A stretch of DNA of 64,000 nucleotides from Clytia hemisphaerica (taxonomy: Eukaryota; Cnidaria; Hydrozoa; Leptothecata; Clytiidae): assembly GCA_902728285.1 (NCBI GenBank), contig CACVBU010000545.1:248001-312000 (forward strand), read 5' to 3'. Below, piece after piece: positions 3,401 to 63,374 of this stretch (position 1 is the stretch's first letter; each line of letters opens with the position of its first letter). Both the position numbers and the translations under genes were made by a program. The notes beneath the pieces were generated by a model that searched no databases, was not told the DNA's origin, and saw only the letters and a list, made by a program, of their open reading frames with translations.

Positions 3401-6400
3401 CCATCCAGATTCGGGACGGATTAAAAGCACGCTGATAGGCTCAAAGTCAAACGTCAATCATTTGCATACAATGAGATTACAGTAAAAATAAATAGGACTG
3501 TACTCTTTTTTCTAAGAGTCAGTAGATTTTTAATGTAGCTCCCGCTGTTATTTTTTATTGAGCCTCAAATTGTTCTTGTACTTGGAGCAGAATTGAGGCA
3601 AGAATGTTGCTTTCAGCTTAAAAACTCTGTTCAAAGCCGTGTGAAATCGAAAACAAACTTGATGGAAACTTTTTACCTTGTAGTGAAAACAAATTCTCTT
3701 CGAGGTCTGAAATCTTAGTTCGCAATTGATTGTTGAATTGGGATAATTGGTCATATTGTTGCACAACCGCGTTCAATTCTTTTACTCTCGTTTCCAGTCC
3801 TCTTTTATCAGCAACACGACTTTGTTCGACCTGTTCAACCAACGCTACAAAGTGAACAGAATGGAAAATTATGATATGGTACAAAAACTTTTGCTCAGAG
3901 CGATGTCGAGTGTCGATGGGATGCTTGTAGATATTAGTTACGTTCCGTTTCGCTTCGAAACTTCTCTGTACACAGATCCAGTATATACGGCTAATTTCAA
4001 AATTCATTGCCGTAGAGGGTCTGTTGTCATTGTCTTTTCTCACTTGAGATTTTTCAAAACGATCGCTGCGATGGAGTGTTGGTGAGAGAGGAGGGACGAT
4101 GGGAGAAGTGTTGCTATTTTATAAATCATACTTCATTGCAGAGGTCTCCGTACGGGAATTTTTTAATCAAACAGACAATGCGCACAGAGTGTACTACGAA
4201 GCAATACACGTGAGATGCACCCTGGTAGAGAGTACTTCGAAACGAAATGAAGCCATTTTATTGGTTAGAAGTGATGTAAAAATTGAATTTTACCAATAGA
4301 ATAGCTTGATTTCGTTTCGGGAGCGAAATGTAACTGTAGCGTGTGAGCGTGGTCTAAATCTAACCTTGCAACACTTAAATTTCGACCATTATCGTATAGA
4401 GTTTTCACTAACCCCAAACAATCTTCCTCTAATTAGACATGATAAAAAGCTTTGAGAGACAATTACTAATGTATTAAAAACTTCTCTAATTTATCTTTTT
4501 CCTAAATTTTAACGCGATATAAAAGAATGCAAAATTATAAACACACTACCATAATGTGTAAAAAGTTGTAATCCATCACTCTAACTATTCACACGAGCTA
4601 TTGAAATTTTTTTTTCAATACATAGTATAACAAGCAACATGCTGAATGGACCTACCTAATGATTAACATCAGATGAAAATAAGAAAAAAGTGACAATAAT
4701 TGTACAAAAATTCAGAATGGAAAAATAAAGCTTGTGTGTTGAATAATGTAAAATGGTAAAAAGGAATTTTCCCAAATACAAAAATCACTTGAACCATTCA
4801 GGCCCAAAAAACCTTTTAAGCTGTTTTTTGCCCAAATTTGCCCAAAATAATTTTCCTTAAAAATCTGGCTTCGTCACATTTTGGGCATTGCCATTTTGCA
4901 TCATTGTGCAAAAAATCAGAAAAAAATTATGAGTCAACATTGAGAAAAGCTATATTTTCTTATTTGGTTAAAGGGAATTTCCCCAAAATACGAAAATCCG
5001 TCTTTTAAGGCGAATAAGAATTTCCCGGGAAAAACCACTTCAGTCATTCTTTAGAGAATCTTGCCCTCCATCTTTATACAAAAAATCAGAAAAAAGTAAT
5101 GACAGGATTTTGCACAAAGTCCAAAAAACCCTATTTTTAGGCAGTTTTTGGCCCAAATTTGCCCAAATATATTTTTTTTCGAAAATCGGGCTCCGACACA
5201 TTTTAGGCATTGCCATTTTGCATCATTGCGCAAAAAATCAGAAAAAATTAATGAGTCAACATTGTTAAAAGCTATATTTTCTTATTTGGTTAAAGGGAAT
5301 TTCCCCCAAAATACGAAAATCCGTTTTTTAAGGCGAATAAGAATTTTCCGGGAAAAACCACTTCAGCCATTCTTTAGAGAATCTTGCCCTCCATCTTTGT
5401 ACAAAAAATCAGGAAAAAGTAATGACAGGATTTTGCACAAAGTCCAAAAAACCCTATTTTTAGGTAGTTTTTGGCCCAAATAATTTTTTTCTCAAAAATC
5501 GAGCTCCGTCACGTTCTGGGCATTGCCATTTTGCATCATTGTGAAAAAAATCAGAAAAAACTAATGAGCCAATCCTGAGAAAAGCTGGTAACAGACGGAC
5601 GGACGAACGAACGAACGAACGAACGAACGGACATGGGTTAATTTATAGGACCTCCACCGGGGCACCCGGAGGTAGGTCCAAAAAATGTGAATAAATTAAA
5701 TAGATTCTTACTGACCTTCTTTATCTTTCAATGATTGCTCCAATGTTTGTATCTTATCATTCAAGCCAACGACCACCTCGTTCTCAGTCTTCTTAGCTTG
5801 AGCTTCCACTTGTTGCAGCGTAGATGTCAGTTGCTCTTTCTCATATTGAAGCACGTCCAAGTCGCGCTGGAGAGTGTTGAGCTCTACTATCAGGTTATCA
5901 TTATGTGCTTTTAGAGATTTGTTCTCTTCTTTTGACGCTGTTTCGGCTTCCGTATGTTTTGAATCAATCTCTTCTGCAGAAATTTGAAGAAGAAAACTCA
6001 ATGATAGACGACATGAGGGATGGGATGGATCCCAGGATGGGAATTCTTGTAAACGTATTTGGGGTGGTTTTTCAAGGTTATTCTCGCTTGGTTCGTTGTA
6101 AAGCCCTTTTCACGATTCATCGTTACTGATCATTTCGTTAAAAAAAGTCTCAATGTTCTACTTGCATCTGATTCCCTTACTTGTATATACTGCAAGAGAC
6201 TGCGATTGCGGTATGTGGAAAATGTAAAATTGACGTGTGAAACCCTTCTACCCTATAAGTTCAACAAGTCCCTGAATGGATTAGGGTCTTTAGTAAAGGG
6301 ATTTTAACCCAAATTCAGTTGAGACAAAAATGAGCCCATAAACTCGAGAAAACCCGATAATTTTACGACTCAGCTCATCACCATATTGTTTCCTTCGAAT

Positions 6401-18400: not shown

Positions 18401-21400
18401 ATTATAATTTTTTCCTGCTCAAAATAATTCTTGAGAAAAAAAATATGTGTGGATTTGTGTATTGAAAGTTTTTCATTTGAGTTGATTTCGTTTTGAGAGT
18501 TTGTTGTTGCTTGATAAATTTTTTTTCTTGCTACGCAAGTTTCTGCGTAGCTAGCCCCTGTATCTATAAGGCTAGAACACCGGATTCTTCCAGTCGTTTA
18601 TACAAACTAAATCCCGTATCATTATCATTATTAGTATTGGTATTATTAGTATTACACGCATTATAAACGACTCCAGTCTATCCCAGCTACTATATATTTC
18701 TTTAGCTTGAAACAATAGAATTTCTATCCCCATTGGGATTCTGATAGAAATATTTGTCCATGATGTGGGAAAAAGTTCCATCGGGGCTGCGGTGAGACAG
18801 TGGTGTTAAAAAGAGGGGTTACAAATATACTTTTTTCAAGCTCTTGAAGTTTGTGTGAGACGGAATCCGCATTTTCTTTCTCTTTTGACAGCAGTTCTTC
18901 TTTTGATTGCAACTTGCGTTTACATTCTAACAGCTCGACTTCAATCCTCTCCACGTCTCCTGTCTTCTCAAAATCGGCTGTAATGAATTCTTGCTTCATG
19001 CTATTGAAACCTAATAAAGGAACGAATAAAAACTTTCTCAGATACTAAGGTGTTTTTAGAACTAAAGTAAACTCTCGTTCAAACTATAATTCGAACTCAT
19101 TCCTCGTCGTCAAGTCCCCGTCGAGGGTAAACCTCTTAATATACTTTTTATGCAGCAAAAGCTTTCCGGTATAAAAATCATCAATGTTTGATCTTACAAA
19201 TTTTGTACTATGCTTCTTTCCGATCAGCTGTCAAAACTCAAGCCACAAGGGGATTTGGATTTTTCAATGGGAAATTTCTTCTCGCGAAAATTTCTTCCCT
19301 TAAGGTAAATTTAACCTTGTTGAATTCGAACGCAACCCCTTTTATGTCGCTTAAGGTTGGCGTAGGTGTATTAGAAGCTTAATTATTTGCATGAGTAAAA
19401 ATTTGAAACCAGACAAAACAAGAGAGCGAAATAAGTTCCCTGGCTTGATCGTAAGTAGTCTGTACACAGACCCGATATCTACGGCTAATTTCAAAATTCA
19501 TTGCATTTTACAAAATGATAAGCGTTCGAGAGACACTCTGGTACAGAGTAGGTCGTAAGCAGGTGAACATTTTTCATGTTTCTGCAAAGACTTTTTGTCA
19601 GCTTCTTTAAACTTAAGGATAAAATGAGATTGAGTGCATACCTGCAACCAGGTCTTCTTTCTCTTCAAGCGCAGTTTTCAATTTCGATTCCAGATTTTCA
19701 ATTTGTCTTTCGAAAACTTGTATGTCGACCTTTGATAAAGCATCTTTTCTATCCTCTTCTGTGGAAGATAAATTTTCTTGTTGTTTTTTGAGCAAGTCAT
19801 CGATTTGTTGTTGTAAGAGTTTGTTCTCGTCTTCTTGCGATTCGATGACATCTTTCAAGGTACCGACGTCTAGTGTGGAGAGAGTATGGAAAAAAAGGGA
19901 AAAGAATACAGGCGTACATAAAAATGCTTGAAACAACTTAAAGTTTTAGGACATGACGTATACACATAGAGAACTTCAGGAACTTGCAGATTACCAGTCA
20001 CTGTGGAAAGATATCTGCAAACTACAAAATTGATTTTCTTTTATGAGCTATTTTTGATAAAGTCCTAACTTTTGTTTATTAAAATACTTTAAAGTCAAAT
20101 TTTGTATGGGAAGTCTCGCCAACAAAAGGCCAAATTTTGACAACATCTTTTCAATTTTTTCAAGAATTTTTTTCAAAGGATAATATTCCACTCATGATTA
20201 TTGTTTCAACAAACACAAAATCGGAATCCGATGCAAATACTATCTAAAGTTATTCGCTATTTTACTGATAGCTAATTTGGAAAATACTTTGGCATTCGTC
20301 AACTTCGCAACTTGGTCAAGAGGAAACAACAGGAGGTTTTTCTCACCGGGATACGATCTAAGATACATTTAGTCTGCTTCCAATACATCTGATAACGAAG
20401 GCTATTAATTTAAAGTCCGTTTACTATAATTGTTGCACACTTGATTTTTGTTTTGCATGCATTACCATAATAAGGCATTAATTTTGGTTTTGCTTGGATT
20501 ACTATAATTGGGCATCAATTTTGGCTTTGCTAGACATCTTTTGTTAACTATTATTAACTATTAAGTGTTTTAATTTGGATAGATTATATAACTTAGAGAA
20601 TAACGGTGATTGAAACTCGCAGATAAAATACTGGAATCCGAGTTTAAGGTCTTGTCTTCGTTAATTTCCCCGTTGAGAGGACCGTACCAAACCGTGGCCG
20701 GATTCTCTACCTTTACGCTACAGACAACTATCATTGGAGAAACATAAGCACACTGTCTATCGGTATCACTGACCTTTATATATCCCTGGACAAAGCTATA
20801 TCCGCCATCTTTGATTGGAGTTTTTTTGGAATTGGTACCCGAGATGAAACCATTGCAATGTTAAAAATTAACGTCTAACGGCGCTACATCATCAAAAGTA
20901 TTTGAGGGAAAGTAGACCTAGCGCTCTTGATGCATTTACACCGCTATTGAGTAGTGCCACCATTAGGGTACCACTTTTCAAAAAATCTCCGATCAAAGAT
21001 TTTGTTTTTCCGGGATTGAGAAGCTTGGTCCAGGGATATATAAAGGTAAGTGATCGGTATAGCCTATCCACTATCATCTTAGGGAATCTTTAACGAATTT
21101 TAACATGTGTGTAAAAGGCGAACAGCTGTCAAAGAATTAAAAAGTCCGTTCTTCCCACGCACTATCAAAATCAATGACTTCAAATTGATGTAAGATATCG
21201 AGACGGTAGTGGACAGACGAAAATTATTGGGAGGGAAGTACATTTAAAGAATAATTGCACTTCACTTCTTCAAATCAGATAAGTCATTTTGAAAATGATG
21301 CCAAATGCAAATCAGATTAAGTCTACCGGCAAACAGTATAAATAGAGTCAGATTTTTTTTGATTGATCATTCGCAATAAAGATTCAACTTCTGAACTGTA

Positions 21401-24400
21401 AAAAATATGATGACGAAAAAGGAGTTTGAATAAGATGAGGGGGAGGAACGAGTTCGAATTCTACGAAATATTTCTGAGCTTTATCACAAAGGTTTTCATT
21501 GAAGGATGAGTGAACTCTAAGAAATTTGTTCTATTTAAAAACATTACTTATTTTGGGTATTAAGTTTGGGAGGTAGCGGGTATGTCCGAGGAGAAAATCG
21601 GAAATGGACCACAAAGGACCCTTTTTGGGATCCTTGGAGAGATTTTTCACATGCTTCGCCACCTTTGAGAAGGAAAATTATTTCGTTCTTTTTTGTTAGG
21701 TATAAGAAGAGATCCTTTGAAAACCTTTTATAAAACTTTATTTTTGCAATCTCTTCCTAATATATTGTAGTTTTCAGAAATTTACATCAACTTAAAAGAA
21801 AAATGAAGAGTTCAATCTGTTTCTTGTTGGTGGTCTTGTTGACTCTCCACGCAATAACTGATGCTCGAAACATCAAAACATTTGGTAAGATCATCTGTTG
21901 TTTTTTGGTTAGTACAGAGAATATTCTTAATAAAGTACTCTCTTAAACACGATTTGCTCTATAATTCAGAAAAATTTTATGGCCCGAACCGGTAAAAAAC
22001 CCTTATAAAGAAGCTCCTACAACTAATTTTCTAACGATTCCCAAAATTCCCGTATATTCTCGATTTGTGATAAATAACTTCATAGATCGATAGTGCGATC
22101 ATTCACTTCTCATTAGCTGATCATCCACAAAAATAAAGGACCAAATGATAATAGTGTCCTTCAGGGTCTCTCCCCCCCCCATGCCTAGAATGAAAATTTT
22201 CCATCCCCCCCCTCATTTTTCCCCACCCTGCCTCCAAAAATTTCTCTCCCCCCCCCTCAAGCAAAAAATTAAAAAGCTGTAATTTGATGAACTTAACGCT
22301 TATTGTTTTCCCTGAGGTAGTTCTAATTCAAGAAGAAATAGAAAGGATGGTTGTTTTTAAACCATAATATTAATAAAACTAAGCATTATGCTATATCATC
22401 TCATAAAACCAGATGTTTTTCAATTTTGAATTGATTTTGGTGAGTTCCCCCCATGCCTAGATTGAAAATTTTCCATCCCCCCTCGTTTCCCCCCCTGGCT
22501 TCAAAAAAAATTCTTTCCCCCCTATACGTCCTTTTGACCTGAATCCAGGGGGGAGGACACTATGATGATGATATGATACTAACGAGATATCATTCCTTCT
22601 TTGAAAGCTGTGCTGACATTTCAGCAGAAAAGGCTGTCCTTTAAAAAAAATTGCTTCATCTTATCGATTTATCAATTTGACTTTACCTAACATAAGAATA
22701 AAGTTTACCGCCAAGCAGATTTTGAATATGGATCATTCGGCCGGACAACGGCAAACCAACAACAGTTGTTTATGCTTTTTAAATGTTCTTTTTAACAAAC
22801 AGATAACAGTCATCAACGGAACATTAGAAGCCTTTTGGAAGATGCACCAAAATCAAGGGTTGCCAGAAGAGCAGGTAATCACCTTTTTCTCACCTTTTCC
22901 AAGTCCCTATAAGGATTTGATAAGAAGTCGCACCACTTTATAAGTTTCGCATCATAAATATCATATAGAACTTATGTGTAATAAATCAAACCCGTCTAAG
23001 GAGAAACAAGCTAGATGCTGAATGGACCTACCTGATGATGAAAGTTAGAAAAACGGTTTTCCGGCATATTTCTGGTATTTTCGGCCGGGAAAAAATATTT
23101 TTCGAAAATCGGGCTCCGTCACATTTTAGGTATTGTCATTTTGCATCAGTGTGCAAAATTTCATGAAAAAATATAAAGTACAGCTCGAGAAATTCAAGAA
23201 ATATCATTTTTCCGGCGAAAATAGGCTGTTCCGGCGATTTTTAGAAAGTTCCGGCTTCAAAAATCACTTTTATTGACAATTAAACCATGCTTGATGGTGG
23301 GCAGTGCTATCAATAATGTTTTTGTGTGAAAAAACAACGAAATATAAGGAAAAAGTCCAATGAAAATCTGCAAAAAAAAAAAAAACGGCGATTTCCGGGA
23401 TATTTCCGGCATTTTCAGCCGGAATAGAATTTTTCTCAAAAATCGGACTAAGCCATGTTTTAGACATTGTTAATACGCATCTTTGTGCAAAAAATCAGAA
23501 AAAACTAATGATGAAATCTCGAGAAAATGCCAAAAAACCGGTTTTTCCGGCATATTTCCGGCATTTTCGGCTGGAAAAGTACGTTAATTGAAAATCAGGC
23601 TCTGTCATATTTTAGGTATTGCCATTTTGCATCAGTGTGCAAAATTTCATGAAAAAATATAAAGTACAGCTCGAGAAATTCAAGAAATACCGTTTTTTCC
23701 CCCGGCGAAAATAGGCTGTTCCGGCGATTTTTAGAAAGTTCCGGCTTCAAAAATCACTTTTATTGACAATTAAACCATGCTTGATGGTGGGCATTGCTAT
23801 CAATAACGTTTTTGTGTGAAAAAACAACGAAATATAAGGAAAAAGTCCAATGAAAATCTGCAAAAACGGCGATTTCCGGGATATTTCCGGCATTTTCAGC
23901 CGGAATAGAATTTTTCTCAAAAATCGGACTCGGCCATGTTTTAGGCATTGCTAATACGCATCTTTGTGCAAAAAATCAGAAAAAACTAATGATGAAATCT
24001 CGAGAAAATGCCAAAAAACCGGTTTTTCCGGTTTTCGAAAATCGGGCTCCGTCACATTTTGGGCATTACCATTTTGCATCTTTGTGCCAAAAATTAGGAA
24101 AAACTAATGAGCCAATCCCGAGAAAAGCTAGTAACGAACGGACGAACGGATGAACGGACGAACAGAGGTTAAGTTATAGGACCTACAGCCCACCGGGGTA
24201 GGTCCAAAAAATAGGCCTAGATATTAAAGTTGGTTTATACCATAGGACCATGACCAATAATCCCAGCAAAATTGAAATATATTCTTTAAAGAAAAATAAA
24301 TCGTTAATAATGTCTTATAGGATTGGATTGTGGTCTTGTGGGATCGAATCGCTCCTTATGTAAAGATTCTATGTATTCAATATTTTGTAAATGTGAGTAA

Positions 24401-27400
24401 TTGTTAATGAATTTCAAGCACGAGACAAGAAAAAATGTGAAAAAGACCAGAACCTGCTTGTTTTCTTCATTTTATACTTAAATTTTCGGCCTCGACACAA
24501 CACCATTATATTGTAACCGGTAAAATCTGTTGTGATGAAAAACTACAGTGATGTAAATAAAATAGACAGAGAAAGTTTTTTCCTAGACTGTATCAAAGCC
24601 TCTTTGAATGATCTTTTTGTCGGTCATTATTTGTCGTACAGGCTAGTGCAGATTTTCAAAACTGAGCTATTCCTTTACAACTTAGTAACTTACTACACTC
24701 AAATTTTAATCCTCCTCTGGGGAAAAAATGTGTCACGCCAAAAACTTTTTACATTTTTTTACAATTATCAGTTCATGTTTTATAATACGAAATTTCTTTT
24801 GTTATAGTACAAATCATACACCTATATTTTTGTATTAACGTAGTATTTTTTTTCGATTACGCTTTTCAATAATACTTTTTTCTGTAATACATCTTTTAGA
24901 ACCAACGTACTGATCACTTTTTACTTTTTCTAATTCCCATCCAGAAAGGCGTCTTTTATATGTAGAGTCCATAAGGATAATTAATTCATAGTGTCCTCCT
25001 GGGTTGGTTCCCCCTACTAAAGTTCCAGATCTTTCTCAATTACCCCCTCTTTTTTGCTTTCCCCCAGCTATTTGACGATTTTGCGGGTCCCCCATAATGG
25101 TTAGCATAAAAATGCCATGAATCAAGTTTAAAATTTTGGAAAGATTGATAAATATAGCCTTGAAGCTGCTTAAAAACATTAAGCTATGTTGAAATATTAG
25201 CTTGGTTTAAGAAGATTTGCTTATGTTATTGTTTAAACTGGTCTTGCACGAGATCACCTTGAGGTCAGCGAAGTTCCCTCCAGCAAAATTTCCAAAATTC
25301 ATGGTCCCGCCCCCTCTTTATTTTCCCTCCATCAAATTTCAAATTTCTCATTCTCCCCCCCCCCCACACCTCAACTCAAAATCACTATGTAATTAGAGCA
25401 ATTCAAACATCCTAGCCCTATACTATACTAAATGTTTAGAACGGCTATATTCAGGTTCTTTTATAATCTAAATAATACACCCATTGGTCTAAGTAAAGAA
25501 TTTAAAGAAAGAATAACATTGACTGAACAAATTTGAGTACCTGATTGGAGGTTTATGTGATCTTTGCGTAATTTTTCAAGCTCTCCATTCTGTCGCTCAT
25601 AATCCATTACTGTGAAAAAAAAAAACACAAAAAAAGGTTTAGTCCCTTCTTAAAAAATCAATAGCATACCGTAGTGAATCTAAAAATAGACATTAATTTT
25701 TCTGTTTGACCGAAATCAATCAATCAATTTATCAATCAATCAATCAATCCCATCACCCTTTGCACGCAAATTACACTCAATTACAAAGAAAAAGTAATAA
25801 CTTTCACAACTTTTGAATTAAGACAAAAAGGATTATGGGATTGAATTTTGGCCAAATGAGAGAAGTAATAATCATGACTTGCATAACGAAGCGCTATTCT
25901 TGAAGCTTCAACGTTTTATATAAATAATAAACCTTATGGCTAATTCCAATCAGGGGATTCGGAATTACAAATAACTAATGGAATTTTTTCTACCATCGAT
26001 TCACCGATAACAAGTGAATCAAGAAAAATTAGATTCCCAGAGTAAAGAAAAGTCGCAACGGGTAAAATTCAATGCTATCAAAAGGGAAAACAAAAGAAAA
26101 TGGGCTATTCAAGAAAACAAAATTTGATTCCCAGAGTGCGTTTGGAGGTTGATCAATGAAAAAATCTCTGAAGTTTGGCAATATTCAAAGGGTACCTCAA
26201 AAACTAGGCGAAAAATCCAGGTGCTTATCTAAATTTCAACAGAAATCCAGGAGTTCCACCTTTCAGAAGTGACCTCCACGACGGAGAGGCAAAAAAAACA
26301 ACTTTATGCAGCCAACTCTCTCTCTACCACGAATCTCTATTATCCGAATCTTTCAGTAATTCAAAGTAAAATATTGGTCCTTTCAACTGGAAAGTGGTTT
26401 AAGTTATTCTCTGTTATTCGAATTTTTCTCTAATTCATGATAATGCACCATTGCAATGTCTTCCACGGACTTAACAGCTGATTGGTTGAAAGTGACGTAT
26501 TGATTGATTTTACGTCACATATAACCAATCATCTATTGGGTCCGTGATGTAATGTCAGAAGACATTACAGTGGTACATATCATGATTTCGAATAAAATTT
26601 CTGGGCCCTAGAAGATCTAATTTGAGAGAGAGAGAACTATACTTGAGAGGAAATGTCTATTCAAACCTTGCTGGTCCATCGCTAAAGCATCTCTATCCTT
26701 GCTAATACGGTCCAGTTCAATCTGCAGGCATGCTTTATCCTCTTTGTGTTGTTCAATCTCAGCCAACAAGGATTCCAGCTTTGAATCGTGATCTTTGACA
26801 TTCTCCGTGATCTGAGCTACCTGCTCCAGAGCTGCGGACGCGTCTTTTTCCAGTTTCTCGTTTTTCGTTATCAACTGTTGATTGTTTTCCTGGAGCTCTG
26901 CAATTTGTACATTACTGAGCGCTTGATCGGCTAAGTTTTTGCTTTGCTCTGACACCGCTTGCTCCATTTGAGCAGCTAAGAGTTCTTGTTTTTCATACTC
27001 TAGTTGATTTTTATCAGTACGTAGTGTTTGAATAAGTTCTCTATTTAAGTCAAGTTCCTCTTCCAGAGCAGATATTTTTTGCTCCCATTGCTGTGTAGAG
27101 GTTTGTTGTTGTTCCTGAGTAGATTGCTGTGTCTTGTAATCGTTCAAATCGTTTTCAACAACTATTAATCTCTCCTGGAGGTCCGATTTCTCCGTCATAA
27201 CTTGTTCATTAGTTTTTGATAAGTTAGCAAACTCTAATCTCAAAGATTCGAGTTGTTGACTTAAAGTTTGATTCTTTTCTTTTTCTTGTTCCAAAAAGTT
27301 CGACAACACAGTTTGCCACTCTTCATTCTCTGTTTGGTCTTTCAAGCTCATTATTTTCTCCTCTTTTAGCCGTAGCTCTTGGTGTAACGCCTCAATTTCA

Positions 27401-30400
27401 GCGGCTTTTTGAGAGTTTGACGTCTCGTCCGTCTTACAAGTATCTCTCAGTCGTTCACACTCTACATTCCGGTCGCGTAGTTGGTTTTTTAGTTTCTCAG
27501 CTTCCATCTCTTTCTCGCGAAGCCATTCTTCAGCTTGGCTGAGATCTTTGACAGTAGTCGCTGAATAAAAACAAAAAACATTGATACATCTTGTGTCACA
27601 AAACCAAAAAAGAGAAATTCGTGATCCCGGAAGGAATAAATACACTGTACTGGATTTTTCGAGATTTAAAGACGATAGAATTTGTTTTTTCCACCAATCA
27701 TAAAAAAAAGTTTTTCCGACCAGTATTTCACCGGAAAATCTTTTGTCGAAAAATCTTTGGCATTGCCATTTTGCATCTATGTGTAAAATAACCGTACATC
27801 CTGTGCTTAAGTCCAGGAGTTGCCATAAAGCCATTATGGTAATAACCAGGAGGGCACATCGCTATACATTGTAAAATAATAGAAAAAAAACTAATGACCA
27901 AACTTCGAAAAATCTGGTAACGAGCAAAGGAACAGTAACGGGTTAATGAATCTACAGTATCGGATACCTTTATATTCTTCAAATTCTTCTTTTAACAAAT
28001 TATACTCGTTCCTTTCGAATGAACACTCCATTGCATCTGAAGAAGAGAATAAAAGTACAACAATGATAAAAAAAAGAATGACGTACTGATTTTTTTGACT
28101 TGATGTTATCTAAAATCGAGCAAGCTTCGTTTCATAATGCTTCATTTTCCACTGGTTTTTTTTAATAACCATTTTCGGGTCAGCGCTGGGGTTGCTTTAG
28201 CCGGGTTGCTTAGCATTCTAGCTTGCTTTGACCACACCTAATATTATACCATATTTATGCTTATTGAGCCAAGGGCTTTTAAGTCTCCCATGGTTAAATT
28301 ATTTAACAAGCCTTTACTTACTGAATGAAAAAAATTGGCTCATTTCGCCCCCCCCCTCAGCCTTAGCAACTCATTTTTTAAATGCAACGTACAAAAATTT
28401 GAGAACATTCTAAGAACATTCTTAGGCTTTGGAGACTTAAAAACATGCATTTTCTTATGAAATTACATCAAAATGCTCAAAAAATGCTGAAAATAAGAAC
28501 ATTTTAAGAACATTTTTAGGCTTCAAATCCAAAAAACTAAGAACATCCGAAGGCTTCGAAAATTTTTGACGTTCTTATAAAAAAAAAACGTGTATTACAG
28601 GAGCGGATACAGGAATTTTTATCACTGTGTGAAAATTTCGGTTTACCCCGATTTTCCAATATAATCCTAATTTTTGAATCCGATTGTTAAAGGAAAACTC
28701 TACCCCATCGCTACATGCCACACACATGTATATAATATCTTTGATTCACTCTACTTATAAGAGCACAGGATCATAGTTTCAAAAACTCCTCACGTTAGTT
28801 TATGTTCTTCTGTAAAAAACTTTAGATTACACTCAGAAAGAGAGAAAACTTCGTGATTTGTTTACATGAAAATCGCGATAGTGTGAAAGGTATGAAAAAG
28901 TGTTTTCACACAGTCTGGAGGAATGAAAATCCGTGAAAAGTATGCAAAACTATGTAATTGTCCTCACGAAATTCTGCCAAATTAATCTCCACCGTTAAGG
29001 TTTGATAACAAGATGAATGCGACTCATTCAGAGAACTTATTACGATGGAGAGTCTCTCTCACACAAACAAAAAGCTTCTTTGACGTCATTTTGAACACAG
29101 AAGTTGAAACGTATCAACAGATGTACTAGTCTACACAATAGACAGATCGGTCCACGCTTTTAGGCCTTACTCTTGGTCTATAGGCACTGCTATAGGCGGC
29201 CACTAGTGACACCCACCGGGAATTGCTTATTAATAGGTTTAAACATAATAGACAACATTCACAAAAGATGTTTATCAATAGAGATTTTAAATAAAAGAAT
29301 GTTTAAAACACAGCTGATTGGCTTAGGTTTCGAAACTCTCTATTGTTTCATTAAAACCTCAGTGTGCATGCGATTTATCTGGAGAATTTCAATATTCAAA
29401 ACAAGAGCAGTGCTCATAGCCCGAAGAGTAGGAGTTTTACGCTCGAAACGAAGGAAGATTATATGACGTAGCCTACAGATGTACCTTTTGAACATTGTGT
29501 ACAGAAATCATTTAAGTCTTTCTTTGAAAGAATAAAATATTTTTTCTACAAGAAAAAAGTTATAGAAAACAATTTTAGTGTTTTTATTTTTTTGAATCTC
29601 AAGAAAATTGAGTGTGTGAATTCACCACGTTAACATACCCTGTATCCGCCCCTGATAATATTAGGAATTGAAACATTATTATGCACCAAGTTAATTTCCA
29701 CGAATAAGTTTTCGCGAGATTCATTTTTGCGTTTTCGAGGCCAATTTTCGAAATTTAATTTACGCGAAATTTATCTAAAACGCTAATTCCCAAAAACAAA
29801 TCCAGAAAATGTCGTAATTCTTTAAGCTCGCGAAATTTAATTCGATTAAAGTAAGACTTGAGTCTATTTTTGGCTGAAATACCTAAACACTACAATAAGT
29901 GCACAACACACTCGCACACAAATTGCGATACAAACCTGACTTAACAAATACGTCTGACAATCGATCTTTTGAAACAACAGGTGATAAAGTCTTGTTACGA
30001 AAGTTGGCCAGCTTTTTCTTTTTGGACACCATAGGACTATCATTATCCGATTCATGGATGGTAATTAATCGATTGCCTTGAAATGCTTTTTGAAGTGAGC
30101 CTGGGCACCAGGTCTGGCGACGTTTATATTTCTCCGTGGTAGACTATTGTAAAAACAAAAATGAATGCGATCGTTCAACGAAATTTTAAATGGGAAGTCT
30201 GCAATCTATGGTGGACTGAAAAACACTTCGAAAAATACTTCACTAATACACGTATTCAAGTAATGTTACATTTGTCACGATTGATGACATGTGGCTTTCC
30301 CTATCTATTTCGTGCTATAAAAGCGTAACAAGCGACGACTTACACATTTCATACTACACTCCCACGACTATTTGAAACATAACCTCACTTTATTATGAAT

Positions 30401-33400: not shown

Positions 33401-36400
33401 CACATTGCACGCACTCTTCGAGGGTGCGCCAAATAAGAAATAATGAAGCATATCATGATTAGATTCAATATCAATTCAAAAAGACATAATTTCTCATTAT
33501 TTACGTTCATATGATAAAATGTGAGTGTGTATAAGCATTTCTTAATCCTTTTATCATCAGAAATCGAATCCTTGATATGCGTAAGCCAAGATTACGTCAT
33601 TTTTCATATCGGAAACACCCGAAAACCCCTGAGTGTTTATACTAGAATATCAAGAACTAGCAATATTGCAGGTTATGGGCAGGAAAAGAATTGAAAACAA
33701 AGAACTGAAGTCTACCTCCTGTTCCATAAGAAGATCACCATGTTGGACATCTTCCAACTGAAAAAAGTTAAAACAGTAACAAGATGAATTCTGACCAACG
33801 AAAAGAAGTTGATGAAATGGGTTATCGAGTTTCAGCAAATCAATTACATTGAACTATTCCAGAAATAGTCTGCATCCCCTATGTTGAGGAGGTGTAACGT
33901 CCAGGATGGTCTCCAGACTAAATAAAATAAAAAATCCAGGGTGGTCTAGTTTTTTGAATGATAAAATCCAGGGTGGTCAGTAAAATCGGGTTGAAAATCC
34001 AGGGTGGTCCAAAAAAATGGGAGAAAGAAATCCAAGGGGGTCCTAAAAAATTGGAAAAAAATCCAGGGGGTCACCTTTTAAAAAAAGATCTCCTCAACAT
34101 ATATAGGGTACAAATTTTTTCTGGAATAGCCCATTTCACTGGCGTCGAGACAAAAGGTCTAATACCAATTTGAGACTAGTTTGCTTTTCTAACTTAAAAT
34201 TGTAAGATTAATCTTTTCTCGCAGTGGAGAAGGAATCTATCTACAAGTAAAAAGGGCCAATTCTAAAATTGTAAGTTAGCAAAGTAAAAGAAAATTAGCT
34301 TTCCCTGAGACACTTATTTTGAGATTGGATCTTTTGCCTCGACGACAGCGATTTTCCACTTGCTTTCGGGATTATATTGGTTAGCTAGCTACTAATCTTT
34401 CAGGGGCCCATAGTGGCCCAGCGATATAGTACTATGCTTACAGAAAGGAAACGAAGAAGCCACTCGAATCATTGCAAAGTCACGCATAAATACAGCGCAG
34501 CGCGGGTTTCACACGAGCGCCAGACGAAAAGTAAAATTTACATTGAGATTTCAAGATTCTGAAAAATGTAACCATCATAATATTCAGTCCGAAATAAAAA
34601 TTGGGATTTACATTTTTAAGCCTAGTATAGAAAGTATTTAAAACTATCAAATTCAAAGATTCGAAAATTTTGTAAGAAAAATATATATATAAAAAGGAAA
34701 ACCTCTTTGATCTTATTTTTCAGGTCTCTGATTTCCATCATTTGTTTTTTCATTTGAGAATTCCCTTCGAATACCTGAATCATATGAGAGAATCAAAATT
34801 ATTATTTCACTTTGAATACCTGAATAGTGAAGGCATTAAGACCACGTTCACACGCTACGTTCCACTCCGAAACGAAACGGTTCCGAAACACTGTGTTAAC
34901 GTCAAAATTGAAAACGTCAAAAAAGAAGACATTACAAAGCAAAACAGATCGAAACGGTTTCACCCCACTATTTTCATCGGAACGGAACTGCTCCGTTTTC
35001 TTGCTCCTAAACGTTCCGGAACCAATATGAACACACTCGATCTATAACGAAAACCATACCGGAGCGAAACGGAACAGTAACGTGTGAACATGGTCTAAGA
35101 TAGTAAGTAAGTACCGAACATACATGGATTATTGTGTAAAATTTTACATTAGAGATGACATTTAGTAGGGGGTAGCCAACCTTTAGGATCTGTAGCATCT
35201 TGCATGAGACGCAACCACGTGTGAATGGTTTGAAAGTAGATAGAATTTTGAGACGTTTGCCTTTGCTACGGATCCTAAAGGTTGCCCTTCTCCTAATAAG
35301 AATATCATTACGTAATTTTGTTTCTTTCACCCTTCTCACAGCAACAATGTTTTGGAATAAAATGATAATTGAAGAAGTACCTTTAACGGTGATTTGGAAA
35401 CTTACCTCGTTGACTGTAGGTTTATTTTGTACATTTTTCGCACGAGCAGCAAACTATGACAAAAACGATCAGAAATTTTTAAACATCTTTACCTCCTAAA
35501 TCTTTGGTACAGGTTACTCAACACCATAAGTATTTTTTCAAGAAAGTGGGACTCGTAAATAAAACTTTGAACTAGAGAGGTGTGAAAAAAAACTTTGTTC
35601 GAAAAGTAATTGTATTTATTGTCTACATCATAGGCAAGCAAATTACACAAATTACAAACTATACTTAAAGGTTTTGTTTTTAAATCAGAGTGATATCGTT
35701 TGCTTACTCGTCAATTCTAATTCACAAGCTTTTTCACATTGAAATAAACGCGAATGTGGAGTAAGATTGGTCAGAAAGAGGAAAAGAAAAACATTTTTTT
35801 GCTTATAAAGCATAATAACAATAGGCAGACACTGTCCTGATATGAAATATCTGCCTGATATGAAACGGGAACACTTATGTAAAAATAAAACCTTTAACAA
35901 ACCTTTAGAGTTTGTACAGTTTCTTCGTAAACAACAGGAGATACACAGCAAATCATGGCCGTCCTTGCGTTACCACCCAATGAGTTTTGTAGAAGTCTTG
36001 TCAATTTAGAATCTCTGTAGGGAACGTGATCTGGCCTGAAAAAGGAAATGCAAGTGTAAAAATACTTGAGATTTACATTTCAAGACCAACGGCAAGCCAA
36101 ATTCTAGAAAGGCAGGGCTGCGTCCGCCAGGGACCAAACAGGGCACTTTTCTGCTTTTTTCATGAAATAAGGCTGTTTTTACCATTATTTTTCATAATTC
36201 AAGAGGGGCAGCGTCAGATAAACCGGACACTAAAAAAGCACAGATCTCTAAAGCCCGAAGGGCTAGATTTGCGGCTTTTATCGAAAAGTGAAGCCTAGGT
36301 TTGGAAGGATTTCCTACCAAAGTCACGTGACTAAAATATGCAATTTCACCGGTTTGAGAGATGTGAAATAGTGTTTGCCGCCTACTTTTTTAGATCTCGC

Positions 36401-39400: not shown

Positions 39401-42400
39401 TTGAACATGTAATTGAAACTACAAAGATATTACAGGTACATGGGGGAATGGCTACAGAATCGAAACATTCCATAGAAAAGCGTGGGTCTAATATTTTAAG
39501 CAAGAGTTTTAAATCTCTCAATTTCAATTATTTTACTAGCTAAATATTAGACGAGTATAAAGTACGAAGCCTTGTGGAGAGAACCGGAGACCACAGGTTG
39601 CTTCGCCTACCCTCGATTGTTTTCTTTAGCAAACAATAAACAGTTAAGTGGCAAGACCAGATCTTACATACCACAGCTGAATAACCAAATGTTCTCCCAA
39701 AGAAAGGATGCAAGATTCACGTGCATTTTCATTAATCAGACAAACATTACCTTGCCCTTGCTTTACAAGTTGTAGGCCTTCTTCGAAATTTGTGATGTTG
39801 AATTCTGTTAGGTTATCCACATAAACGACACCAGATTCGTCAGTTCGAATTTGAACTTTAGCTTCTGGTTGATTGCCTGTCTTCAACAAGTCTGTAATGA
39901 CCTAAAAAGAATTCAAAAGAGAGACCTTTTTAGAATCTTTATAAGAATAAGTTCAAATCTAAAATCTTCAGTAGACCCTCGCTTATTCGATATTCTATTT
40001 TTTGAATCTTTTTGTAATCCGAACTACACGTTTTTTTTTATAAGGAACACGTTTATAAGGAACTCGAGGCTGAAAGTAGTCCAAAAAATAAGGAATTGTT
40101 AAGGAACTGCTCAGGCTAAGAATAAGAAAACAAGTTCTAAGGAACAGTAAAAGTAAGAGTTTTCACTTGAACTAGATATGTAAATAAGGAACTCAAAAGG
40201 AACTTTGAGGCTGAAATTTTCTGTAAAAATAAGGAACTCCAGGCTCAGAGCAAAGTTAAGGTTCCTTATATAAAAAAAAAACATGTAAATCCTATTCCCC
40301 GTCAAGGAGAAACCCTCTTAATATACTTTCTATATACAATTCAAATCTCTCTCTTTTCACACTTCACATTATATTCTAAGATCAAAGAAATTAATGTTGT
40401 GAAAATGGTAATTATTACAGCACAGTTTTTTCACGAGGTTGAATTTTATCATCTCCATTTTCCAAATTGTTTTGAGTTTTTTTCTACATTTCACTCTTGA
40501 ATATCTTTTCAACAAGCACAAAACCGCAAACAAATTCTATCCAAAGTAACAGCAACTTTTTGACTTTTTAACCTTTAATCTCTAGGATTATATTGAGACA
40601 GACTTTAGATGAATCTTGGTGAGATTCTATAGAATTCTAATGGTTTCTATCTTTGAGATTACCCAATGGGTCCTGCATTGGTAGACGAAGGAGTGCTTCA
40701 ACTCAAACTGGATGTGTAAGTGCGTTTAAAAAACTTAAGTAAAATCTAAAGCCTATTTATCTATTTACGAGTCTGTTTACTTATTCTGCAAAAACATTCC
40801 ACAGCTCCATTAAAGACGTAGACAATTCATTCCAATTCTTATTCGACACTTTGCAGTCAAAACATTGTAAACTCTCTGGTCATTGAAATGTTATATTAAA
40901 GTGAAAACATTGCAGTGTTGAATCGAACAATTAAGTTACGTTACGCGCTAGCTTTTGTTTTGATGATTGGTTGAATAACTGCTATCTTTATGTAAGCTCG
41001 GCGTTTTTGAGGCAGCGATTCAGACCTCAGAAAACATAATGTCAATCTGGCTTTTAAGTAATGAATGGTATTTAATGTAAAAAACAATAAGTTTGAATGG
41101 GATATTTTTTATGGTTTTCCCTGTACGTTAATAACTGGTTGTGACGTAAGCGGTCCAAAACAGGCGAGTACGTTGTTCTGATTGGCTCTCTAGCGTATTA
41201 GTGACGAAAGTCTTGGTTGCACTCACATTTAAAATTCATTGCATTAAAGTCAATTTGACCAGGAGTTTCAGAATAGACGTTACAATGACTTCTTTCATAG
41301 GGCTGACGCCAAAAGAAAAATTAAAAACAGCCACAAAAGGAAATAAAGGCAAACTTGATGAAAATTTATAAGTAAACAGTTGATATTTTACTGAAACGAC
41401 CTTTCAAACAAGGAACTATAAAGAATGATTTAGTGTACAATACGAGTTGCCAAGTTTCAAGTAAACATTTTTGTTTATTTCAAGGTAGATTGCATTAGAT
41501 CAGAAGAAGCGTTAATTTTGAAGATCTATTCTATCAAACAGGAAATAAAACTTATGAATGTAGACTTCCTCCATTGAATCATACTGAAAATGTGTGATTT
41601 TTAACAATACAGATCAGCTCCATATAAATATATTCTCTCATTTGTTTTGGTATTAAAACGAATCGAAAAACAGTAACCAGAAGTATTGTGTCAACGGAAA
41701 AATATAACATTTTGTAAATTTGAAATATTTTCAAGGTAAAACTGTGTTGCTATTTAAATGAAAATGCGTCAGTTTTTATTGATATTATCATCATGTCTCT
41801 ATCTCTCACTGGGAGTCGTTGACTGCGCAAGAGAACTAAAACATGTGGCCTGGTCAACATCGGGGACCTGTACATATTCTTATGTTCCAGGAGGGAAAGT
41901 CACTATTCAAAAGAGTACAGCACCAACGGCAACCTTACAAACAACAGCCGTGCAAAATTTCTTCACTCATTCTGACTTTGGGATCACCCTTGGAACTGCA
42001 GATACAGCAGGACAAGTTTTGAGTAAGTCAATTTCAAAATTTATATCACAGAAATTCAAAAGTCGAAAGGGTCTTTTATTTTAAAGGCCGCTACCCACTC
42101 AGCATTTTATGGTCGGCGAACAAGGCGCACGGCTCGAGCGCTTTGGTCGCTGAACGCTTTTCCCATTCCACTGATCCAAAATAAAGGGGAGATATGCTGC
42201 ACATTTTTTTCTTTTTGCTATTGTTGATATCTTTTTGCACACGGTACAAGAGAGTTAAATGTCTCTTCTGATTGGCTATTTAAAAAAGAACAATAGGGAA
42301 GCCACACAGCCTAGCGAAAAAAGTTGAAAAGTTTCAAGGGTAGCGACCTTTTGACTCAAGGCGACAGCCTTTGAAGGCTTGATTTATGCATGGATTTATC

Positions 42401-45400: not shown

Positions 45401-48400
45401 CAATTCTACCTGACTATCTGGGTTTCATCAAAATCTGAAACTATGAAACTACGATGGAATGTCTTCAAGGATGATAAAATGCTGAGTGGGTTTTACTGAG
45501 TTTTACCAAGTCTAAATCTAAATACCTTATCGGGGAAAATAATGTCGGGAGAAAGTGACGAAAATTTTGAGGGGGTGACGAAATATTTCCCCGACATTTT
45601 ATCCCCTGACCAAAACTTGTGCCCGATTTTTTTATCCCTGACCTCGGAATTTCATACCGCAAGCAAAATTCAAATCTAATTTTTTTACACCTTTATTTAA
45701 CCGAAATTAGTGCTTTAAACGTCGAATTACAAGATCCATTTTCGAGCTAGTGAGGGAAACCATTTTTTTTGGACAGTTTAGTCGGGTGAAAGTGATGAAT
45801 TTGAAATTTTTGTCGGAGAAAAGTGACGAATTTGAAATTTTGGTCGGAGAAAGTGACGAAAATGCCTCTAGGTGACGAAATTTTTCCCAACGAAAAAAAA
45901 AACCCGACTAAATAAAACTCCGACATTTTTTCCCCCGATAAGGTCTTACCATACCAGTTATAATTGGTGAATGCTAAACATAGTATTATTCGATGATGAG
46001 ATAAATTCTGTATGCAAGGTTTCAACGGAAAGAAACATTTGGGAAAGATTTTGAAGTTCGTTTTTGCAGCATTTTAAGGGTTTACTACTGTATATTGTAA
46101 TTGTTTCGGACATTTTAGGTTACGTTGGAGAATTGAGTAAGAAATTTGTCAATACAGCTAAACACTTGGCACCGGCCATCGGCATAATCGGTAGTGTACT
46201 AGGTACGATCACAGGAGACAAGACACCAACAGCTGACGACATCTTAAAAACAACAAACAAGGCTTTTGAAAAGATGACAGAGGAGTTGGACAGTTGAATT
46301 GAAGAAATGAAGAATTACGTCGATACTGAGATTATTCGTCTCTTAAAAGATATCAACCATCAAAAATACAAATTTTTATATTCTTACTGGACTGGTTGCA
46401 TTGAAGGACCAGCAAATGAAACAGAGCTATGTCAGCGAGAAGCTAACCGTCTTATTCAAGCATCAGTCAACGAATTTGCGATGTATTCTGACCAGTTTGA
46501 TCGTAATACACTGAAGTTTAACCCACTGTTAACAGGAGATCAAATCAAGAGAGTTGAAGTGAATTTGATTTTGTTTAGGTAAGAACAGATAAAGGAACTG
46601 AACACATGTTGTCTAATTTAAGTGACTTTGTTTGCTTTTTCAAACAGGTTCAAAACAACGTTTCTAAAATAATCAAAATGATAGCTCCCACATAAAGATT
46701 TTCCGATGTTAGGTACAGTTAATTTGAAATCGACATTTGAAAATCGTTAATTTACTCCCTTGCGGTTTCGTCTGTTTTACCTTTTCTAACTCCTGTAAGA
46801 TATATATTAGTATTTTTCTAATAATCCAAAAAAATATCTAACGCTTGGTGTGATGTCAGCGGAACCTAGAAATCAAAACTGTACAGTGTTGTTGTTTTTT
46901 TTCTTTAGAAACTATGTGTTTCTCAGTGTTATGGCTATGAAGACCATCACCTCGACGTACAAAGACCAACATGAAAAAGCATACGTTGACCTTTACGAGA
47001 GCCAACTTCAGAAGAATGTCAAATTCTACAATGATTACGCAAAAGCATCTGTTGATTTGGTCAAACAAATTAATCTGAACTACACATCAAATTATTTCAG
47101 CTCTAAATATGAACAGGAAATGAGAGATCATGAGAAGAATGTTCCAGATGTGGCAACAACATTGCTACCTGAACCTGACTACCTTATTACTACCTTCGTT
47201 GAAACGGAGATTAAATGCAAATTACAAATGAATTCAAGATTTACTGATTATTGTAAAGCTGACGTGAGTGTAATGTTGTGCAAGAAAGGAAGCAAGCTTT
47301 ATGTTAATTGTAAAAAAGGAGACCCTATTCCTGACAACTGGCGATACAAAAAGTCTTACTCCCATTATCCCGTATGGAGTAAGTATGATGTTTCGCACAC
47401 ACCAGCTTTCTTGGCACGAGCCATCTGCAGATCAGAGTTGAATACCAAATTGAAAGATTTCAAAAGCTCTTACGCTCTTTCAATCAAACGTTACTGGGAA
47501 AATGAAGTTGGAAAATTGTTATCCTGTGCAAAGAAGTTGATTGATTCCAAGAATCTGGATAATGCAAGAGAGACAGGCGGATGGAAATGTTGAGAAGCAA
47601 GCCACATCATCGAGTTCTCAAAAATGAACAGGAATGGGACTTTTCCAACAAGTCCTTTTATAGACATTGCTAGCCATAATTTACAACAATGAACCGTAAT
47701 TTAAAAAAAATGTATAACAGGAAAATCTTCATGGTATAATTGTGAACATTTTTATAAAATTAATAAAATTTGCAAAAGTCGTTTTGATTCATACTAAATG
47801 AAGTCCAGGTCCATAACAATTCTAAAGAGGCCTAAGTTCAAATCTCTCCCTATTCTAAAGCGGCTTAAATCCAGGTCTCCCCAATAAGTAAGTCCATTTT
47901 TTATGAAAATTGGGATATTTTGTTGTCCTGGACATTTCTGGATCATTGTAGCTTTCTTTAGATGTGACCATTTTATAGGTCAGAAAGGCTCAAAATCTGA
48001 AGCTTTGAAGTTTGATAAAAATGTTGAATTTTAAAAAGACTTAAGTCCATCAATTTGATACAGTTTAGGGGCCTAAGTTCATTATTATTTTTCAACATAA
48101 GTTTATCAAATTGAGTTGGTACGTTCTAAAAAGTTTAAAAGTTTATGAAATACTTTAACATAATAACAAAAACAAACGTTTTAAAAAAAGGCTCCGGGGA
48201 CTATTAATCGGTTTGTACTTTTACGGTGTGACGGGATTGACCCTTTTTTAGTACGGTATTACGGGATTTGACGAAAAAAGAGACGGGAAAACGGTATTCT
48301 AAAATCAGACGGTTACGGTATTTAGGTACATTTTTCCCTGTACAAGCCGGTGTGACGGTGTTATTATTTTTCCAATTTTCGGGATTCCGGGATTCAGCAA

Positions 48401-61618: not shown

Positions 61619-63374
61619 CAATTGAAGGCAGCTGAGGCCTGGTGCAGAGAAAATGGCAAACGTGGCTATGCAGCACTTAAAACAGGTCACTTTGTCTTTG
61701 TGACTCTTACAACAAAGAACAAGAGAGATGATATACAATCATCTTCATTTCAGGTGATGTGTGCATGTGCCAAGTGATTTTCAAATCCATAGGAATAACA
61801 AGTGCAATGGTCCCTCCTGTAGCTGCAGAAAAGATACCTAACCTTCTAATCAGCACTGCCGAAAATGGAATTTCTACTCACGAAACCTTTCTTGCCGCTG
61901 CTCATGAATTTGATGACTACTTGGAGCTGAAAGGATTTGAAAGGCCAGTAGTTTTACTATCAGATGGGCATAGTTCTCGTCTGAACCACAAGGTTCTTGA
62001 ATTCCTCCTCTCAAAACAAATACAGCTGTTTGTGACACCACCAGACCCAACAGGGTAACTCAACTTTTGGACCAGTTAAACAAGAACATTCACCAAGAGT
62101 ATGAAAAAGAAAAAGCATCAATGTTTACTGACTTTAACACTTTAAGTCGAGAAGCCTTCATGGTTATTCTAGCAAACATCTGGGATAAATGGGTTTCCAA
62201 AGAGGGTATCATTAATGCTGCAAGAAAGGTTGGTATCACGTCAACAAAACTAAGCGTAGAGATGATGCAGCAAGATAAATTTGAAAGGGCTGCTGCAGTC
62301 GTCGATACAAATGATGACGATGCAAACTCGTCTGCAATTTCAACATCATCAACTTCGTTCATTGTCTGTCCTGATAAAAGACGTGGCTCATCACAGTATT
62401 GGCAAGATAAATTCAACCAGGCCATGGGTATCATAGATGAATTGCATGAAAAGAGCATCGTGCTGGAAGAAATCACTGGTTTCTTGCCTGTGTAAACCAA
62501 AGCTGTCTAAGAAAAATACAAGTATCACACAAATCCATGGATCAATGAAGGCCAAAAATGTGCTCACTGTACTGAAAGACATCAAGAGTAAGAAACAAGA
62601 GCAAATCAAAAGTAAGGAAGCCACTGCCAAAAAAAGGAAGATACAAAACATGCATTTCTCAAGTGCAAAGAGAAATGTATTTGTGAAAAACCAAAATGCG
62701 AAGCATTCGGGCTCAAGCAATGTCCAGTGTGTCAGGACATTTTGAAGTCAGCTTGTAGTAAAGCCAAGTGCAAAGTTGATGGGATAAAGCCAGTCATGAT
62801 TGTTCCAGCAGCAGCTACAGCAAGTTCTTCCAAGAGGAAAGCACCTGCTTCAGAAACCGAGGAAAGTGAATCAGATTTTGTTGATACCGATTTTGATCAT
62901 ACCGAGAATGAGAGTGATTTTGAAAGTGAAACCAGCAACACGGATGATGTAAGTGCTGCAGATATCTTAAGAGCAACTTGGAAAACACTCAGCCCTCCAG
63001 TGACTGAGGATTCTCTCTTGGGGAAGTGGTATGGTGTAGTGTATTGTACAAAGCGCATTAGCAAGCTGTATGTTGGTAAAATCTTGAAACGTTTCTTGGC
63101 TGATGAAAACGGGTTTGTTGAGAAATTGGAAGTTAGGTGCTTGAAGCCTAAAGTAGGATCTGGTACCATTCTTGAAGATACACCAGCTCATTTGCCAGAT
63201 GTGTCACTGTTTGACTTTGCTGATGTGATTTATGGTCCTCTGAAAGTGGTTCCTTTAAAATCTGATAAATTCAATGTTCCAGATTATGAAAAAGCTGTCG
63301 AACATTTTAACAGTAAAGAGTATGGACAGAAACAGCATTTTTTAGGCTATTTCACTTATTTTTTTCATTTTTAG
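61619..63374 (+). pseudogene. pogo/DDE_1-like transposase, frameshifted and internally deleted
   Basis: Three pieces lie in different frames. At 61619 QLKAAEAWCRENGKRGYAAL is an N-terminal fragment. At 61759-62058 a DDE superfamily core holds PVVLLSDGHSSRLN (second acidic residue) and ends TPPDPTG at a TAA. At 62067 LDQLNKNIHQEYEKEK continues after a one-base shift and carries the third acidic residue. A Cys-rich zinc-binding-like stretch around 62660-62780 (CKEKCICEKPKC) and an acidic Ser/Glu-rich tail (62727-63374) follow. The region expected to hold the first catalytic Asp is missing between the first two pieces. It cannot be active as read. Confidence 0.75.

Follow-up and report, generated by a model that had tools for sequence, protein, structure and literature searches.

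The locus considered here raises the question of whether an intron of a kinesin gene in the hydrozoan Clytia hemisphaerica carries, on the opposite strand, a gene for a small secreted disulfide peptide, and whether such a gene would end where it appears to end. The window, that is, the whole stretch of DNA that was analysed, comprises 64,000 nucleotides. An earlier note had proposed three plus-strand exons of 82, 72 and 80 nt within it, and these are present exactly where they had been placed, joining in frame to 77 codons. Exon 1 (21803-21884) contains the ATG, the predicted signal peptide and the first propeptide residues, and closes with a phase-1 donor; exon 2 (22803-22874, phase 1-1) encodes the propeptide ending in RVARR/A (a slash marks an exon boundary throughout); and exon 3 as drawn (24321-24400) holds four Cys codons and a TAA stop. 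The plus-strand exons very probably represent a real gene, and its reading as a small prepropeptide gene nested in a minus-strand kinesin intron of Clytia is mildly favoured. The spliced three-exon structure is a prediction from sequence, and the cysteine exon is the weak link of the model. The proposal that the model is complete stands as regards exons, frame and splice sites, but is less secure as regards exon 3, whose acceptor is weak and whose last Cys codon contains a strong donor; that this exon is terminal as drawn seems somewhat better than an even bet.

All the splice sites of the peptide gene are canonical (TTG/gtaaga and aacag/AT for intron 1, CAG/gtaatc and tatag/GA for intron 2), and both introns are in phase 1. 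Scored with a matrix of generic animal frequencies, the donors of exons 1 and 2 reach 7.1 and 8.0 bits; 12 likely kinesin donors score between 0.0 and 13.0, so that both values fall within their range. The acceptors of exon 2 (3.7 bits, rank 401 of 3512 AGs) and exon 3 (3.4 bits, rank 428 of 3512) are weaker than all 16 likely kinesin acceptors (5.1-14.7 bits), a comparison that is unfair to the peptide gene because the acceptor matrix was trained on those same 16 sites.

The signal peptide claimed for the precursor is borne out with a score of 3.27 by a simple hydropathy and cleavage rule written for this analysis, which predicts a cut after Ala21, at about 21865. Likewise, the Arg-Arg cleavage motif is found directly before the cysteine peptide, with RVARR at codons 46-50 and the Arg-Arg pair of the predicted convertase site at codons 49-50 (22865-22870, plus strand). 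The Cys codons 55, 65, 74 and 76 start at 24329, 24359, 24386 and 24392, and give the spacing C-x9-C-x8-C-x-C that had been read earlier; the end of this framework is insecure, however, since a strong in-phase donor splits the last Cys codon, and the framework is therefore provisional. The predicted mature peptide, whose mass with the four Cys oxidised and no glycosylation is computed at about 2896 Da, has a net charge of 0 and a pI of 6.3, follows a propeptide with a computed net charge of +5, occurs as a single copy in the precursor, lacks a C-terminal amidation Gly and carries one NRS sequon. To judge from the sequence, the plus-strand gene would be transcribed and spliced, signal peptidase would cut after Ala21 and so release about 21 residues, and a convertase of the furin/PC type would cleave behind RVARR. 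The resulting neutral peptide of about 27 residues would be oxidised to two disulfides and secreted.

The strength of exon 1 is not explained by chance. In simulations, the model sought was a three-exon gene encoding a signal peptide and a dibasic site, with Cys codons even in number and at least four; the observed values served as splice cut-offs. At the observed signal-peptide strength the complete three-exon model appeared in 0 of 2000 simulated strands, and a signal-peptide exon this strong with such a donor in 7 of 2000, figures that favour the candidate since the thresholds were fixed after it had been seen. With a laxer signal-peptide cut, three of 120 simulated strands yielded a three-exon model, and of the real strands of the window the plus strand gave one and the minus strand none. 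Outside the window, 15 stretches of this genome, 136.5 kb in all, contained no such model on either strand; they comprised the two flanks of the window and 13 stretches from 20 places asked for, seven of these lying on contigs that were too short. The later exons are more easily imitated. When only exon 1 is fixed, a dibasic site together with four or a higher even number of Cys arises in 2.4% of 8000 random continuations; when exons 1 and 2 are both fixed, 6% of 4000 random 2-kb continuations offer a third exon with such a cysteine content. The two-exon joins open to exon 1 number 10 in the real sequence vs a chance mean of 9.8. The whole model is thus beyond chance, and exon 3 alone only marginally so. 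A codon-usage model trained on 1249 codons from the window places the synonymous codon usage of the peptide gene (0.18 bits) midway between the null (P 0.058) and the coding expectation (P 0.051), with exon 3 scoring -3.2 bits. This intermediate value, together with the models obtained under the laxer cut, is what speaks for a signal-peptide-like ORF followed by downstream frames that arose by chance in an AT-rich intron, with no gene at all; the empty result in 2000 strands at the observed signal-peptide strength makes this reading highly improbable.

More weight attaches to alternatives in which the gene is real and its 3' part differs. The sequence AAT/GTGAGT places a donor-like site (24393-24398, plus strand) inside the last Cys codon, where exon 3 could end and a further intron begin. 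In that case exon 3 would be internal and joined, in phase 1, to an additional downstream exon, the protein would be longer, and the C-x-C end and the stop would be artefacts of reading through the intron. At 8.05 bits this donor ranks 26th among the 3190 plus-strand GTs; it is as strong as the two donors used in the model and shares the phase of the other two introns. The expected number of donors reaching 8.0 bits is 0.035 per 80 nt. A longer product would, moreover, have fallen outside the length range of the protein search described below. Against this, none of the 36 acceptors scoring 3.4 bits or more in 24440-30000 offers, by eye, a convincing continuation of the frame, and an AATAAA lies 156 nt past the in-frame stop. 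This longer gene is rather unlikely, and is kept as the main rival because of the weak acceptors, the codon score and the strong in-phase donor. In its spacing the C-x8-C-x-C end is similar to Cys3-Cys5 of EGF domains, a similarity that would be in keeping with an additional exon; an EGF-like reading was rejected, as only one Cys precedes this end and no exon up to 30000 supplied the remaining cysteines. It is less probable again that exons 1 and 2 are real and that the true third exon lies elsewhere, exon 3 as drawn being a chance cysteine-bearing frame. The rate of comparable cysteine exons in random continuations, the position of the exon 3 acceptor as the weakest of the model, its negative codon score and the seven alternative third exons that are possible in the real sequence all point in this direction; yet these seven carry at most one Cys after RVARR, and four of them begin within a tandem repeat.

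The three-exon prepropeptide gene, which is the preferred reading, had also been credited with a TATA box and a polyadenylation signal. Both motifs are present on the plus strand, namely TATAAA at 21729-21734, 74 nt upstream of the ATG, and AATAAA at 24556-24561, followed by a T-rich stretch, as a possible poly(A) signal; but they are less secure than claimed because they are common in AT-rich DNA, with chance rates of 6% and 25%, respectively, at random plus-strand positions of the window. An acceptor-like site, tattgtagttttcag/AAA, scores 6.7 bits, with its AG at 21776-21777 (plus strand), 25 nt upstream of the ATG; this site, before 21778, could possibly serve splicing of a 5'-UTR or of a spliced leader.

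The view that the peptide matches no known family was upheld by the searches of the protein collection, Pfam and PDB. No relative of the precursor was found among 5.8 billion proteins by a search that is limited to proteins of 42-135 aa sharing three 5-residue words with the query, and is for this reason blind to unannotated short forms or much longer ones. The absence weighs against the model; the collection does include the Clytia protein TCONS_00011489 of a neighbouring gene. In Pfam, no match of the peptide passed the cut-off, PspB (E 0.11) being the only one seen and lying below its own, and neither a ShK-like nor another cysteine-rich domain profile matched; in PDB, no relative appeared at E up to 10. 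Within the Clytia genome itself (417.4 Mb in 951 contigs), protein-level searches retrieved only the peptide gene, both with the whole peptide (E up to 1e-3, four candidates scored) and with the cysteine part (E up to 10, one candidate scored). In the literature searched, the string CGLVGSNR was absent and no paper on this peptide was found. The gene is probably an orphan secreted-peptide gene.

Precursors of cnidarian toxins and toxin-like neuropeptides of the ShK-like kind consist of a signal peptide, a propeptide, a basic site and a C-terminal disulfide peptide, a layout that the precursor predicted here shares. ShK-like domains have six cysteines, whereas the Clytia peptide has four and no such Pfam domain. 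Hydrozoan neuropeptide preprohormones, including those of Clytia, combine a signal peptide with a basic cleavage site, and both are predicted here as well. A neuropeptide screen that included Clytia used a script that sought at least three peptide copies (PMC8638164); unlike the preprohormones sought in that screen, the present precursor has a single copy, no amidation Gly and four Cys. The PF1 proteins of the Clytia planula are described as short secreted products of neurosecretory cells that are taxon-restricted and have conserved cysteines; the authors report no similarity outside Clytia and propose antimicrobial or adhesive roles (PMC12225738). Compared by description only, the peptide resembles them in being short, predicted to be secreted, cysteine-bearing and from the same genus (PMC12225738). 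PF1 is described there as having several homologous genes (PMC12225738), whereas both protein-level genome searches with the present peptide recovered the peptide gene alone. The antimicrobial peptides of Hydra, such as periculin, arminin and HyCWR, are characterised as typically multi-paralogue and strongly biased in charge (PMC10945409). They have small secreted precursors and are lineage-restricted, as is predicted for the present gene, and some of them have cysteine patterns (PMC10945409); they differ in that here no paralogue was found and an uncharged mature part follows the +5 propeptide, and HyCWR have six Cys vs four in the peptide (PMC10945409).

With regard to function, neuropeptide, antimicrobial and venom roles had all been held open. 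An antimicrobial role is made less likely by the neutral charge and the pI of the predicted mature peptide, and a cationic antimicrobial was rejected as first choice on charge. The role would most likely be that of a lineage-restricted extracellular signal or of a surface or secretory factor of one cell type, and such a predicted role is considered more likely than venom or antimicrobial functions, which rank lower. Only tentatively can this be narrowed to a hydrozoan-restricted two-disulfide peptide that was born or became lodged in the kinesin intron, whose C-x9-C-x8-C-x-C framework is matched by no family searched, and which would be processed like a hormone to act as a specific extracellular signal in Clytia. 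It appears to be a plausible addition to the known kinds of secreted peptides and not a new kind. Secreted peptides of this taxon-restricted kind are candidates for roles in signalling, defence or adhesion, and gene calls readily overlook short precursors that are split into several exons and nested in the introns of a host gene. Gene-knockout methods exist for Clytia, which is kept as a laboratory jellyfish, and the orphan peptide gene is therefore open to direct testing in this animal. Confirmation of the cysteine exon would add one further orphan disulfide framework; failing that, the locus would exemplify how a donor in a last Cys codon can produce a false framework.

The antisense position within a kinesin intron, as originally described, agrees with the kinesin being on the minus strand, as indicated by PDB matches and motifs. 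The exon at 35894-36079 (minus strand) matches PDB kinesins, kinesin motifs occur near 49.1, 39.2, 38.3 and 36.0 kb on the minus strand, and by eye there is a motor-like frame near 39.8 kb and coiled-coil frames of the same gene down to 0.2 kb; for three of these coiled-coil frames no Pfam match exceeded the cut-off. The motor is probably CENP-E-like, but the best PDB matches of the exon at 35894-36079 are kinesins other than CENP-E, which is found among the best 60 of 157. The host intron spans approximately 19871-25540 (minus strand), with the flanking exons picked by eye. Tandem repeats at 23049-24212 and 4814-5686 (units of about 480 and 323 bp) share sequence; the former takes up a large part of the peptide gene's second intron, and the latter lies 18 kb off. 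An origin of the exons from a transposon was rejected, as blastn of 20801-25400 against the window revealed no repeat over the three exons and the two protein-level genome searches no other copy.

A second plus-strand gene is nested in the same kinesin at 46298-47593, where 90 of 91 and 222 of 232 residues are identical to TCONS_00011489. Its part at 46811-47593 has no significant Pfam match, and the frame upstream of the TCONS_00011489 start has an in-frame stop in the window. TCONS names denote transcripts of the Clytia browser, as described in PMC10620158. These matches, with the mitochondrial ones given below, point to Clytia hemisphaerica or a near relative, and the residue differences would fit another strain or a sister species. 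An ATG frame at 41758-42084 (plus strand) has a signal-peptide-like start and no Pfam match; it may be the first exon of the gene at 46-47 kb or a separate secreted-protein gene. The plus-strand frames at 61732-63374 resemble a DDE-type transposase, and 61732-62058 and 62616-63374 gave no significant Pfam match.

Another contig of the assembly, 14,551 bp long and read over its first 10 kb, is mitochondrial. COX1 runs off its end, which suggests a linear genome, and contains a TGA. The gene order, named by eye except for COX1 and rnS, is ND2-ND5-rnS-ND6-ND3-ND4L-ND1-ND4-Cob-COX1, which we take to be hydrozoan. Among the 120 cytochrome b matches listed of 7999 scored, the best named is that of Eutima (91%), followed by Tiaropsis, Mitrocomella, Blackfordia and Aequorea (89%), all of which are leptothecate hydrozoans.
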